Assembly: GCA_001805575.1 (NCBI GenBank)
Contig: MHGN01000066.1
Coordinates: 1 to 40,115 of the forward strand
Direction: 5' to 3'
DNA: 40,115 nucleotides
Origin: Omnitrophica WOR_2 bacterium RIFCSPHIGHO2_02_FULL_45_21
GTDB lineage: Bacteria > Omnitrophota > Gorgyraeia > Gygaellales > UBA12090
The notes beneath the pieces are model-generated. The model was not told where the DNA came from and did not search any database. It was given only the letters and a program-made list of their open reading frames with translations. The stretch's first letter is position 1. Each line of letters opens with the position of its first letter. The position numbers and the translations under genes are program-made. Positions 21,637 through 30,599 of the stretch are shown here, piece by piece.

Positions 21637-22617
21637 TCACGAGGCAATTTTATTGTAGCTGGATAACATCTTGATGCGCTTGAGCATATTCGGGTGGGTG
21701 CTCATTACTTCTAACAACCGCTCTGCAAAACCAATGTTCAATCTTTTTGAACTTAAGACGGCCAGCTCATCAGTATCTATCGTTCCTGACCTATCCAAAT
21801 CTAACTGGCGCAATTCCTTAATTTCATTAAGAGCGCAGGAAGGGTCGTTAACAAAAAAGGCCTTTAGCCCTTCAACCTGCCTTAAACTCTCTTTATCAAC
21901 CCTAAGCGAACCATAGACTAACTTATACAAAGCTGAAGCCAAATTACTCGGCGCGCATCCCAGAGATAGAGCGCCTCTATCGGCAAAATACTCCCTGATT
22001 CTTGAAGCGTAGAGAACCAAAAGATTGGTGATAAAATAAAAAAGCATTGCCGCCATCCCGATAAGCGCTGCGCTATTGCCTTCGCTTCTCTTTTGCGCAG
22101 AGCCTCTATAATAAAGGTTGCTCACCGCAATATGATAAAGCACTATCGGTATGACTGAAAGTAAAGTAATGGTCAGCACATCCCTGTTTTTGAGGTGAGA
22201 GAGTTCATGAGCCAAAACCGCGCGCAATTCCTCTTCATTTAATAAATTCATAATCCCCCTGGTAACGCATACCCTGCCGTCTGATTTCCATCTGCCAAAG
22301 GCAAAGGCATTTGGGATGCCGATATCGGCAATACCTACCCTTGGCATCGGTATCCTGGCTTGGTCAGCTAAGCCTTTAACCATCGCATAGAGCTGAGCAT
22401 CTTCTTTAGCTGAAACATACTTTATGCGCATCTGCCATTCAATAAGCTTTGGCCCTATCATATACTGGATGAGCATCATTACCAGCGCAATGAATAAATA
22501 GGCCCAAAAATTAACGATGCCCAAACGAGCCGCCACCATCACCACAATCCCGTAGACAATGCTAAACAAAATTGCCACTAATAACCACATCCTTAATTTT
22601 AACCACAATATTGACAT
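21637..22617 (-). CDS. htpX: M48 family zinc metalloprotease HtpX with an EF-hand-like loop
   Basis: Membrane protease of 326 residues for quality control of membrane proteins. Two N-terminal transmembrane helices (about 10-55) precede the zinc site HELSH (137-141), with the third ligand in REYFADR (E209). Two further hydrophobic segments lie at 150-205, and the THPNMLKRI motif at 307-315. Between the catalytic part and the C-terminus, residues 273-284 read DLDRSGTIDTDE, a canonical 12-residue EF-hand calcium loop. An almost perfect Shine-Dalgarno (GGGAGGTGAT) and a strong promoter precede the ATG. Confidence 0.93.
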   Translation of the reverse strand: MSILWLKLRMWLLVAILFSIVYGIVVMVAARLGIVNFWAYLFIALVMMLIQYMIGPKLIEWQMRIKYVSAKEDAQLYAMVKGLADQARIPMPRVGIADIGIPNAFAFGRWKSDGRVCVTRGIMNLLNEEELRAVLAHELSHLKNRDVLTITLLSVIPIVLYHIAVSNLYYRGSAQKRSEGNSAALIGMAAMLFYFITNLLVLYASRIREYFADRGALSLGCAPSNLASALYKLVYGSLRVDKESLRQVEGLKAFFVNDPSCALNEIKELRQLDLDRSGTIDTDELAVLSSKRLNIGFAERLLEVMSTHPNMLKRIKMLSSYNKIAS

Positions 22618-22636: not shown

Positions 22637-22664
22637 ATTATAACAAAAACTCGCATAATTTCAA
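22637..22664 (-). promoter_or_regulatory. Promoter for htpX(-trpBA)
   Basis: TTGAAA (22664-22659), 16-bp spacer, perfect TATAAT (22642-22637) on the minus strand. The -35 lies in the last codons of the nitroreductase gene, and the expected start point is about 12 nt before the htpX ATG. It can drive htpX and probably trpB-trpA. Confidence 0.75.
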
Positions 22665-23197
22665 GAAAATCGCCTGATTTCATCCATTGGTTTTCTTTTC
22701 TTATCCCGCACAACCTGGGTCTCCGGGTATCCAAGGCTTAAGCATATATCAACCTTTTTATCTTTTGGAATAGCTAATACCCGTTTTACTGCTTTTTCGT
22801 CAAACCAGCCAATCCAGCAGGCGCCCAGGCCTTCTTCCTGCGCCTGCAAAATCAGATGTTCACAGGCGATTCCAATATCAATCAGCGCATATTGCATACC
22901 CCTGAAATAGCCGCCCAGGCGGCAAAGATACGACGAGCGCTCCGTAACTACCGCAATGATTACCGGCGCCTTCCCGGCAAAAGAATTTAAAGCATAAATT
23001 CCGGAAAACGCCTGCGCGGCAAGTTTATTTTTTAATTTCTCATCGTCAACTATAATAAATGACCAGGGCTGGGAATTGCAGGCTGAAGGGGCAAGGCGGG
23101 CTGCCTCAAGGCATCTATCCAAAACTTCTCGGGAAATCAGATTGGGCAGGTATTTTCTTACGCTCTGTCTTCTCTTTACTAACTCAAGAAATGTCAT
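22661..23197 (-). CDS. Nitroreductase family flavoprotein
   Basis: FMN-dependent oxidoreductase of 178 residues, short but complete for the family. RRQSVRKY (8-15) and APSACNSQPWSFIIV are the FMN phosphate-binding regions, and the GLGACWIGWFDEKAVKRVL segment forms the distal part of the site. The substrate cannot be told from sequence; relatives reduce nitro compounds, quinones or flavins. It lies 9 bp after the response regulator gene and is probably co-transcribed with it. Confidence 0.88.
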   Translation of the reverse strand: MTFLELVKRRQSVRKYLPNLISREVLDRCLEAARLAPSACNSQPWSFIIVDDEKLKNKLAAQAFSGIYALNSFAGKAPVIIAVVTERSSYLCRLGGYFRGMQYALIDIGIACEHLILQAQEEGLGACWIGWFDEKAVKRVLAIPKDKKVDICLSLGYPETQVVRDKKRKPMDEIRRFS

Positions 23198-23206
23198 TAA
23201 CTAATT

Positions 23207-23578
23207 TCACTCGCCTAAAATTATCCTTACCGAGTCCAGAAGAGCCTGGGGGCGCATTTTATGCTTTATCAAACAGGCCTCGGCTCCTAATCTCTTTGCC
23301 CTCTCTATCTCTTGCGGAGAATCCCGTATGGTTAAGACTATCACCGGAATGTGCTGGGTCAGCGAATTTTTCTTATAGAGATTAAGGAATTCAAATCCAT
23401 CGATGTCAGGCATAACCAAGTCCAAAATAATCAAATCTATTTTTTCCTCTTCCAGCTCCTTCAGCCCCTGCCTGCCATCGCCTGCGCTAACGGTTTTATA
23501 GCCAGCCCGCTCCAGGAGAGAACCATTGATTTCTCTGGTTAGACGATTATCATCTATAAGCAGTATCTTTTTTGCCAT
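23207..23578 (-). CDS. Single-domain response regulator (CheY-like)
   Basis: A stand-alone receiver domain of 123 residues with no output domain. The acidic pair D9-D10, the phosphoacceptor D53 (LIILDLVMPDIDG), T83 and K105 are all present, so it should be phosphorylatable. No histidine kinase gene lies nearby. It starts only three bases after the T-run of an intrinsic terminator, with no clear Shine-Dalgarno, so expression probably depends on read-through of the leader. Confidence 0.93.
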   Translation of the reverse strand: MAKKILLIDDNRLTREINGSLLERAGYKTVSAGDGRQGLKELEEEKIDLIILDLVMPDIDGFEFLNLYKKNSLTQHIPVIVLTIRDSPQEIERAKRLGAEACLIKHKMRPQALLDSVRIILGE

Positions 23579-23581
23579 AAC

Positions 23582-23609
23582 AAAAAAGCACCCAGAAAAT
23601 CCCGGATGC
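23582..23609 (-). terminator. Intrinsic terminator directly before the response-regulator start
   Basis: Minus-strand GCATCCGGG pairs with TCTGGGTGC over 9 bp (three G-U pairs) around a 4-nt AUUU loop, followed by six T residues (23587-23582). The ATG of the response regulator begins at 23578. Confidence 0.8.
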
Positions 23610-23753
23610 CTTATCTCTTTATAATTGCGGCCGATAAAGGTGAGCTTTTTCTTTTTCGCATCACCTTCTTACCTCTCGTAGCTCTTACTGTTTACCTGCT
23701 CAAGGGTAACCTTTATCGGCAGTTTTACTTTCTTTTCGCGCTTTTCCCTTCTT
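23582..23753 (-). ncRNA. Structured leader RNA, candidate riboswitch or attenuator
   Basis: From the predicted start point near 23753 to the terminator is about 170 nt without a gene. A perfect 12-bp long-range stem joins GCCGATAAAGGT (23720-23709) and ACCTTTATCGGC (23641-23630). Inside are TACC-N8-GGTA and a GGTGA/TCACC hairpin that shares bases with the long stem, so the two compete. The right arm can also pair, with a bulge, with GATAAGG just before the terminator. I could not match it to the common riboswitch classes I know. It may instead be a separate terminated small RNA. Confidence 0.55.
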
Positions 23754-23759
23754 AATTAA

Positions 23760-23788
23760 AGTATACCTCAAAAATCACTGCTTTTCAA
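23760..23788 (-). promoter_or_regulatory. Promoter of the response-regulator leader
   Basis: TTGAAA (23788-23783), exactly 17 bp, TATACT (23765-23760) on the minus strand. The -35 abuts the left target-site duplication of the insertion sequence, so the IS landed immediately upstream of the core promoter. Confidence 0.75.
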
Positions 23789-23803
23789 GATATAAAATAG
23801 GCC
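23789..23803. repeat. Target-site duplication, left copy
   Basis: GATATAAAATAGGCC, identical to 25198-25212, directly abutting the TGT tip of the insertion sequence. Confidence 0.88.
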
Positions 23804-25197
23804 TGTCAACTGCAATTGAAAACTGGACACTTTTCAGGCAATTTCATTTGAAAACTGGACACCCTGTTTTTGGGGTATACTTGGAAGAAAAAGGAGGATT
23901 CTAAATATGGCCCAAATACACAAGCAGTTTTCAAATGAACAAGTCAAAGATCTTTTTAAGCGCTACATGGAAAAACAAATTGAACGTGCATATATTCAAG
24001 AGCTCTTGGGTATTAAAAAATCCCAGTTCTTTGCCCTTCTAAAAGAATACCGTGATAATCCTGGCGGATTCTCCATTAACTATAGGAGAATTTCGCCTAA
24101 ACGAATTCCCAAGATTGTTGAAAATAATATCATTAAGGAGCTCCAAATCGATAAAGATGCCATTAAAAATAAAGATATCCCTTTAAAATACTATAACTAC
24201 TCTTACATCAGAGACCGCTTGGAAAAAGCATATAATCAAACCGTCTCCCTCAACACTATCATTACACGCGCCAAGCTTCATGACTTCTACATCCCGCGCA
24301 AAGAACATAAAAAAACGCACGACCGTGAAGTCTTAACCAATTATATCGGAGAACTCATTCAACACGATGCTTCATATCATTTGTGGGCGCCGGCCTCAGG
24401 CCAAAAGTGGTGCTTAATCACTTCTTTAGATGACCATAGCCGGTATATTCCTTACGGCAAATTCGAAGAGCATGAATCAAGTTGGGCACATATCCAAGCC
24501 TTACAGTCCGTCGTGATTAAGCATGGCTGCTCTTATTCATACTATATTGACTGCCATTCCATTTTTAGATATGTCAGGGGCCGTGACCAGGTGCATCAAA
24601 AGCTAGAGAAATTCACTGATGAGGTTGATCCTCAGTGGAAGCAGGTATTGATTGACTGTCACATTAAGCCAATCTATGCTTTATCACCTCAGGCTAAAGG
24701 CAAAGTTGAAAGGCCATATCAATGGCTTCAGGACCGGATTATTCGTTCTTGCATCCGCGAAGATGTCAAGACCATTGCTCATGGCCAGCGTGTCTTAAAT
24801 GCGGAACTAGACCGCTATAACCATAAACAGGTGCATTCGACTACCGGTGAAATCCCTTACTTGCGCTTCCGGAATGCCAAAGAACGGGGTAAATCATTAT
24901 TCCATCAATTTACTATACCTTTACCTTACCTGACCTATAAAGACATCTTTGCATTTAGAACTACGCGCTTCGTTGATCAATACTGCAAAGTAACGATTAA
25001 AAACATGGCCTTTAGGCTCAAAGATGTTGAACCAAGGCAGACTATTAATATCCGCGTCTATCCCTTGAATGATTCTCTTATAGAGCTCAGATTCTGGCTA
25101 AAAGGCAAACTTGTTGATACGCAAAGAGTCAAAAAACAAGAACTCGGACTGTCCAGTTTTCAACTGTAAATAGTCCAGTTTTCAAAAGTTCCTAACA
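23804..25197 (+). mobile_element. Complete insertion sequence, 1394 bp, with 15-bp target duplication
   Basis: Both ends begin TGT, and TTGAAAACTGGAC lies exactly 12 nt in from each tip (23816-23828 and 25173-25185, inverted). A second copy of the motif lies inward at each end (23848-23860 and 25151-25163). The element is flanked by the identical 15-bp direct repeat GATATAAAATAGGCC (23789-23803 and 25198-25212). A single intact transposase gene fills the interior. The long duplication resembles the IS1202/ISTde1-type groups as I recall them, formerly within ISNCY; the family needs an ISfinder comparison. Confidence 0.9.
23907..25169 (+). CDS. DDE (rve-type) transposase of the insertion sequence
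   Basis: A 420-residue transposase. An N-terminal helix-turn-helix region (about 8-55) binds the ends. The integrase-type core has D154 (IQHDAS), D215 (YYIDCHS) and E268 in PQAKGKVERPYQWLQDR, the spacing and context seen in ISNCY/ISDol1 and IS1202-like transposases. A C-terminal beta-rich domain follows. AGGAGG lies 9 nt before the ATG. The frame is uninterrupted, and its last codons run into the inner copy of the right-end repeat. It is on the opposite strand from its neighbours. Confidence 0.9.
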   Translation: MAQIHKQFSNEQVKDLFKRYMEKQIERAYIQELLGIKKSQFFALLKEYRDNPGGFSINYRRISPKRIPKIVENNIIKELQIDKDAIKNKDIPLKYYNYSYIRDRLEKAYNQTVSLNTIITRAKLHDFYIPRKEHKKTHDREVLTNYIGELIQHDASYHLWAPASGQKWCLITSLDDHSRYIPYGKFEEHESSWAHIQALQSVVIKHGCSYSYYIDCHSIFRYVRGRDQVHQKLEKFTDEVDPQWKQVLIDCHIKPIYALSPQAKGKVERPYQWLQDRIIRSCIREDVKTIAHGQRVLNAELDRYNHKQVHSTTGEIPYLRFRNAKERGKSLFHQFTIPLPYLTYKDIFAFRTTRFVDQYCKVTIKNMAFRLKDVEPRQTINIRVYPLNDSLIELRFWLKGKLVDTQRVKKQELGLSSFQL

Positions 25198-25212
25198 GAT
25201 ATAAAATAGGCC
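25198..25212. repeat. Target-site duplication, right copy
   Basis: GATATAAAATAGGCC, identical to the left copy, directly beyond the right tip of the insertion sequence and 20 bp past the stop of the metallo-beta-lactamase gene. Confidence 0.88.

Positions 25213-28735: not shown

Positions 28736-30591
<1,856 letters not shown>

Positions 30592-30599
<8 letters not shown>

Follow-up and report, generated by a model that had tools for sequence, protein, structure and literature searches.

A leader RNA in front of a CheY-like receiver gene of Omnitrophota, probably an aptamer-less copy of a free-standing c-di-GMP-I RNA

A stretch of 40,115 nucleotides from an Omnitrophota genome (contig MHGN01000066.1; hereafter the window) carries on its minus strand a promoter, a 12-bp stem, hairpins and a terminator, all in front of a gene for a single-domain (CheY-like) response regulator. 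The initial annotation took this leader to be a new cis-regulatory riboswitch of the receiver gene, with a terminated small RNA as the alternative. Which of these descriptions fits the locus, and whether the RNA is related to a known class, was investigated by homology searches, comparison of syntenic loci and folding.

Parts of the leader and its surroundings

The promoter (TTGAAA-N17-TATACT, 23760..23788) agrees with the consensus at 10 of 12 positions, and its T-rich spacer and extended -10 region (TTTTTGAGGTATACTTT) are common to relatives. Based on the position of the -10 box, transcription is presumed to start at about 23753, which gives a 5' leader (23721..23753) running up to an outer stem, P0, of 12 perfect base pairs between GCCGATAAAGGT (5' arm, 23720-23709) and ACCTTTATCGGC (3' arm, 23641-23630). 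The -10 box is about 40 nt from P0. The interior is a simple hairpin (TTACC-CTTG-AGC / GCT-A-CGAG-A-GGTAA, 23669..23708), followed by a 3' side hairpin, P3 (23639..23665), in which GGUGA (23665-23661) pairs with UCACC (23643-23639). About 18 nt behind P0 lies a strong intrinsic terminator, AAGGCATCCGGGATTTTCTGGGTGCTTTTTT, with a 12-pair stem (23612-23582) and a T-run which stops three bases short of the receiver ATG (23578). The genes downstream, also on the minus strand, were identified as the receiver (23207..23578, 123 aa; Pfam Response_reg, 6e-25) and a nitroreductase-family gene (22661..23197, 178 aa; Pfam Nitroreductase, 1.2e-33).

The promoter, long stem, hairpins, terminator and gene assignments of the initial annotation were all confirmed. 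That the leader is structured was borne out by folding, since the 178-nt leader has a predicted energy of -49.1 kcal/mol compared to -36.3 +/- 3.75 for 200 shuffled sequences (z -3.4, none as low). The proposed competition between a hairpin and the long stem holds in part: the side hairpin and P0 share the ACC at 23641-23639, but the overlap is limited to these bases, so that 9 of the 12 P0 pairs can coexist with the hairpin.

An insertion sequence occupies positions 23788-25212, with a transposase gene on the plus strand (23907-25169) for which the best NCBIfam match, to the ISNCY family, is below cut-off. Its terminal repeats are paired (TTGAAAACTGGACA), and it is flanked by a perfect 16-bp direct repeat, AGATATAAAATAGGCC (23788-23803 and 25197-25212), which is likely the target duplication. 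The insertion is at the edge of the -35 box of the leader and splits the RNA from a beta-CASP ribonuclease gene; at the same place the sister species G001 (contig C16, L058) has unrelated DNA that contains a pair of small AbrB/RelE-like genes. Two other genes of the window deserve mention. The HtpX-like M48 protease (21637-22617) has a short, below-cut-off EF-hand match within its C-terminal part (Pfam EF-hand_5). An enolpyruvyl-transferase (murA-like) gene at 29338-30599 is apparently broken by a frameshift near 29600, either real or a sequencing error: the residues that close its 377-aa frame (29466-30599) are unrelated, and the 86-aa frame at 29338-29598 is the likely continuation.

Syntenic copies and descent from c-di-GMP-I

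Homologous loci were identified in four genomes. The RNA of G001 is 89% identical to the window copy, while those of G003, G004 and G002 were found via synteny with the beta-CASP gene and the conserved promoter and 3' region; a family-wide DNA search was confident for G001 and part of G003 only and matched G004 weakly, and G002 was reached via synteny. The loci were aligned with the interior masked by N; alignment of the full sequences misplaced P0 in G003. Terminators are present at all four loci and TTTTNAGGTATACTTTAATTARGA at those of G001, G003 and G004.

The copy in G002, which belongs to another genus, is a genuine riboswitch of the c-di-GMP-I class: it scores 53.7 bits for RF01051, where the cut-off is 35 (E 2e-8). 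It has the beta-CASP gene upstream and htpX-trpB-trpA downstream, and the window copy lies between the same genes, which makes the two orthologous by position. It keeps the CCGATAAAGG / GGTGATG..CACCTTTATCGGC frame seen in the window; P0 is likewise shared and encloses the aptamer, which is followed by a side hairpin and terminator of the same type. The 5' arm of P0 in the window corresponds in position to the 5' edge of the c-di-GMP-I aptamer in relatives, the interior hairpin occupies the place of that aptamer, and the side hairpin agrees in place and in its GGUGATG start with many aptamer-bearing relatives.

None of the Rfam families reached its cut-off anywhere in the window. The initial annotation had suggested such a search, which was thus negative for the window and positive for its syntenic G002 counterpart. 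For the leader, c-di-GMP-I (RF01051, gathering cut-off 35 bits) was not listed even at E<10, and the matches which appeared at E 0.9-4 (trpB, Phe_leader, ctRNA and others) were rejected as being far below cut-offs and mostly derived from the terminator. A model made from 18 aptamers of the same family gave 4.1 bits at most on the leader, and not at the aptamer place. Neither a GNRA-capped aptamer-type hairpin, nor (A)CGCAAAG, nor a CCUAA tetraloop receptor was found in 23582-23790, and the interior hairpin lacks a GCAAA(G) motif. The window RNA is consequently outside RF01051 on score as well as on the conserved aptamer core, and the initial failure to fit it to a c-di-GMP aptamer was right for this copy. 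A still-working c-di-GMP-I riboswitch with an aberrant aptamer would account for the descent indicated by G002 and for the retention of P0; in view of these searches it is very improbable.

The copies differ in how much of the aptamer they keep. G003, G004, G001 and the window all retain the promoter, P0, side hairpin and terminator, with an aptamer that is degenerate or lost. In G003 the aptamer model matches exactly inside P0 (11.6 bits, with a GAAA loop and GCAAAGCC..GGCCUAAA); this degenerate aptamer is a weak but well-placed intermediate, its score being no better than that of a chance match elsewhere in the locus. No aptamer remains in G004, G001 or the window.

In a survey of 41 c-di-GMP-I riboswitches, the 5' edge of the aptamer was tested for complementarity to downstream DNA. 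Six, in other genera, had matches of 10-12 bp that were unreached by any shuffle, and several of these carry GAGGTGATG...ACCTTTATCGGC, as the window does. A search model, R3, was built from seven aptamer-bearing copies (the six survey copies and G002), the window being left out. The best R3 match in the 40-kb window is the leader itself (23722-23627, minus strand; 28.3 bits, E 8e-5), and its best matches in G003 (30.9 bits), G001 (28.7) and G004 (27.0) likewise fall on the homologous loci. As the palindromic P0 alone contributes 22.5 of the 28.3 bits, seen as a match on the opposite strand, the case for homology leans also on synteny, promoter and side hairpin. The window copy has the stem typical of these Omnitrophota RNAs, GCCGAUAA(A/G)GG : CC(U/C)UUAUCGGC, as a perfect 12 bp, together with its own promoter and a downstream terminator, but P0 contains no c-di-GMP-I aptamer, so it was filed as a derived, aptamer-less descendant and not as a full member. 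On the strength of these sequence comparisons, the window RNA descends from a c-di-GMP-I RNA and has lost the aptamer.

Conservation of the remnant and the genes behind it

The window and G001, the two known genomes of the genus, differ at 134 of 573 four-fold sites (23%) in five flanking genes, an imperfect neutral yardstick. Against this background the 3' part of the RNA has 4 changes in 107 positions (P 2e-8), and the 58 bases that make up the side hairpin with its 14-nt loop and the 3' arm of P0 have one change, with about 13.6 expected (P 3.6e-6). The promoter (1 change in 32 bases) and terminator (1 in 31) are similarly conserved. The interior, with a 9-nt indel, and the fast-evolving 5' leader, with 10 gapped columns and 5 changes, diverge at a near-neutral rate (9-10 gapped columns each). 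The scaffold is kept and the aptamer place is not. A new ligand aptamer in the interior was rejected as the main reading based on the indel and the near-neutral change.

The same pattern bears on the proposal that the RNA is a decaying relic, of which only promoter and terminator matter while the sequence between them is functionless. Such decay would agree with the state of the aptamer, which four of the five copies have lost or keep in degenerate form, and with G005, G007 and G008, where no such RNA was found between the beta-CASP gene and its neighbour. The near absence of change over the side hairpin, loop and P0 3' arm argues against a dead relic, as does the persistence of P0 and side hairpin across four copies that have diverged, where one pair shows a compensatory change and other changes are one-sided, giving G-U, and we regard this proposal as improbable. 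Based on the conservation of its 3' part, the window RNA probably still functions.

The genes behind the RNA are not conserved with it. In the window's genus, the only one where the receiver adjoins the RNA, they are this gene and the nitroreductase; in G003 and G004 an AsmA-like gene follows, and in G002 htpX, which lies 490 bases on and has its own promoter. In G005 the receiver directly follows the beta-CASP gene without any RNA, so that it is the RNA, and not a leader-gene pair, which is conserved. Equilibrium folding gave a terminator pairing of 0.95-1.0 in G001-G004 and of about 0.6 in the window, where the species-specific 5' leader offers an alternative fold with the 3' arm of the terminator. 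Since the alternative is confined to the window, a conserved antiterminator is unlikely, and the independence of the terminator in four of five copies does not support ligand-gated attenuation. Coupling of P0 to the terminator, considered as a candidate mechanism, likewise found no support from equilibrium folding. A leader peptide was also considered and rejected, because G002-G004 do not preserve the 16-codon frame that begins within the side hairpin; their ATG is directly followed by a stop, or the frame is a different one.

The initial annotation was thus partly supported. A riboswitch of the receiver gene is not, given that the orthologous copies precede the receiver, an AsmA-like gene or an htpX with its own promoter, that the terminator folds apart from the long stem in most copies, and that the RNA derives from c-di-GMP-I, as the intact G002 copy shows. 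The alternative, a terminated small RNA, is the best fit to a conserved, structured, promoter-to-terminator RNA. Conservation in relatives, which had been named as a check, was found at the G001-G004 loci and as compensatory changes in P0 over 52 relatives.

The chief rival is a cis-acting attenuator or riboswitch of the receiver and nitroreductase genes, co-opted after aptamer loss, in which a different signal, be it a new ligand, a protein, temperature or the translation of a short ORF, would gate read-through. In both species of the genus three bases separate the end of the terminator from the receiver ATG, and the leader promoter is the only good one just upstream of the receiver, which is parted from the beta-CASP gene by the insertion sequence in the window and by unrelated genes in G001; an arrangement of this kind also resembles an attenuator and counts against a purely free-standing RNA. 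The reduced terminator pairing of the window could be read in the same way. The alternative fold, however, is absent in G001, where the 5' leader is shortened; the interior, unlike a conserved aptamer, changes almost neutrally; the short frame is not maintained; and other genes stand behind the other copies. Attenuation of the receiver genes is on this evidence unlikely.

The leader is probably a copy of a free-standing Omnitrophota RNA, present about once per genome, in which a plain hairpin has replaced the aptamer arm, and would thus be a terminated small RNA unresponsive to c-di-GMP. The ancestral RNA would have carried the c-di-GMP-I aptamer inside P0; in the window's genus the plain hairpin would have taken the place of the aptamer arm while promoter, P0, side hairpin and terminator stayed. 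The promoter would produce a terminated transcript, about 170 nt long and spanning approximately 23753 to 23582, which would no longer sense c-di-GMP by the known fold and whose function would rest on P0 and the side hairpin with a putative partner, protein or RNA. As there is no other good promoter before them, the receiver and nitroreductase genes may be expressed by the fraction of polymerase that reads through the terminator.

The parent family and known systems

The parent family comprises loci L188-L239 (G083, G086, G037, G085, G072, G075 and others). Its members have the aptamer and a side hairpin inside P0 (GCCGAUAAAGG:CCUUUAUCGGC), and their 3' end is formed by P0 together with a U-run and/or a terminator that follows. 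The promoter abuts the outer stem directly, just before GCCGATAA(A/G)GG. Riboswitches of the c-di-GMP-I class are nearly universal in the window's order, being above cut-off in 113 of 125 genomes; four occur elsewhere in the window's genome, one of which precedes prepilin-like genes, as do several in relatives. R3 gave about one strong match per genome: scores >70 bits, with a gap to the ordinary c-di-GMP-I matches, were found in approximately 39 genomes of the order, and at E<=1e-13 the model matched in 67 of 285 genomes drawn across Omnitrophota. An exact pattern scan of the species collection returned 36 loci. Eighteen of them were scored with a model, and high scores (62-105 bits) were confined to three, all from Omnitrophota; the rest resemble chance matches.

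Within the window's order, two genes commonly flank the RNA: one is lipoprotein-like and encodes a peptidoglycan-binding domain, and the other, of glycosyl hydrolase family 1, has its own TATAAT behind the terminator of the RNA. Other families of the class have quite unlike gene neighbours, and the gene that follows lies on the opposite strand in 9 of the 22 contexts.

The pairs of P0 are formed in 97.9% of cells over 52 copies, compared to 28-46% for slid controls of the whole structure; this count comes from a model-based alignment that was fitted to the structure and is thereby biased in its favour, and it is cited in place of an earlier pair table that was partly built in by the search expression. 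Compensatory changes were A-U to G-C at column 11 (6 copies) and U-A to C-G at column 14 (10 copies). Among the variants, AAAGG/CCUUU becomes AAGGG/CCCUU, and G264 has GCCCGAAAAGG/CTTTTCGGGGC. A U-run directly follows P0 in 35 of the 52 copies (2.5 expected by chance), which suggests that P0 itself is probably the terminator stem of the parent RNA, with the aptamer as its loop. Based on its own promoter, the covarying P0 usually followed by a U-run, and the varied neighbours, the parent looks like a free-standing RNA with about one copy per genome, similar to the merRNA of Bdellovibrio.

The promoter pattern was rejected as a marker of the RNA, as it also matches L038 and L039 (G099 and G103), which are outside the family and have no RNA. 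At these two loci a very similar extended promoter, TTTTNAGGTATACTTTAAGTAGG, precedes prepilin-like genes, and it may represent a recognisable promoter class of this order.

Few riboswitch RNAs are free-standing; merRNA is a known example of the c-di-GMP-I class. No paper linking Omnitrophota to riboswitches was found, within an incomplete coverage of the literature. The free-standing c-di-GMP-I RNA of the phylum, as it appears from comparative data, is the wider and more interesting find; its architecture, in 67 of 285 sampled genomes, would be a second and far wider free-standing case after merRNA. A further proposal, to which we give even odds, is that an Omnitrophota-wide RNA sensing c-di-GMP controls no adjacent gene, and that one family is losing the sensor while the scaffold stays under purifying selection and becomes an aptamer-independent small RNA, with one locus showing the aptamer intact in G002, degenerate in G003 and absent from G004, G001 and the window. 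A syntenic locus with such graded loss of the aptamer would make a non-ligand role of the RNA testable. For annotation, it indicates that a leader without an Rfam match can derive from a known class by loss of the aptamer.

With respect to the c-di-GMP-I riboswitch (GEMM, RF01051), the orthologous G002 locus is a member, and promoter type, 5' edge (GATAAAGG) and a terminator behind are shared, but the window copy is without aptamer, Rfam match or conserved aptamer motifs. With the free-standing Omnitrophota RNA it has in common the promoter, P0 sequence, GGUGA side hairpin, terminator and occurrence of about one copy per genome; it differs in the plain hairpin that stands for the aptamer arm, in a 5' extension of about 30 nt and in having no U-run directly after P0. 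The merRNA of Bdellovibrio bacteriovorus is a non-coding c-di-GMP riboswitch which controls no gene and has been proposed to act as a c-di-GMP reservoir; it is massively expressed, and the authors who described it saw no conservation beyond Bdellovibrio (PMC3627812). It is a precedent for a c-di-GMP riboswitch RNA that controls no gene, but it keeps its aptamer and massive expression and has no known sequence kinship with the window RNA; a merRNA-like reservoir, with very high expression, an aptamer and no controlled gene, does not describe the window copy, which is without the aptamer. In the ghost aptamers of glycine riboswitches, a degraded aptamer leaves its stem as a scaffold and a second aptamer still binds the ligand (PMC6944388). 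The window RNA resembles these in the decay of the aptamer and the retention of the stem and, unlike them, has no remaining aptamer.
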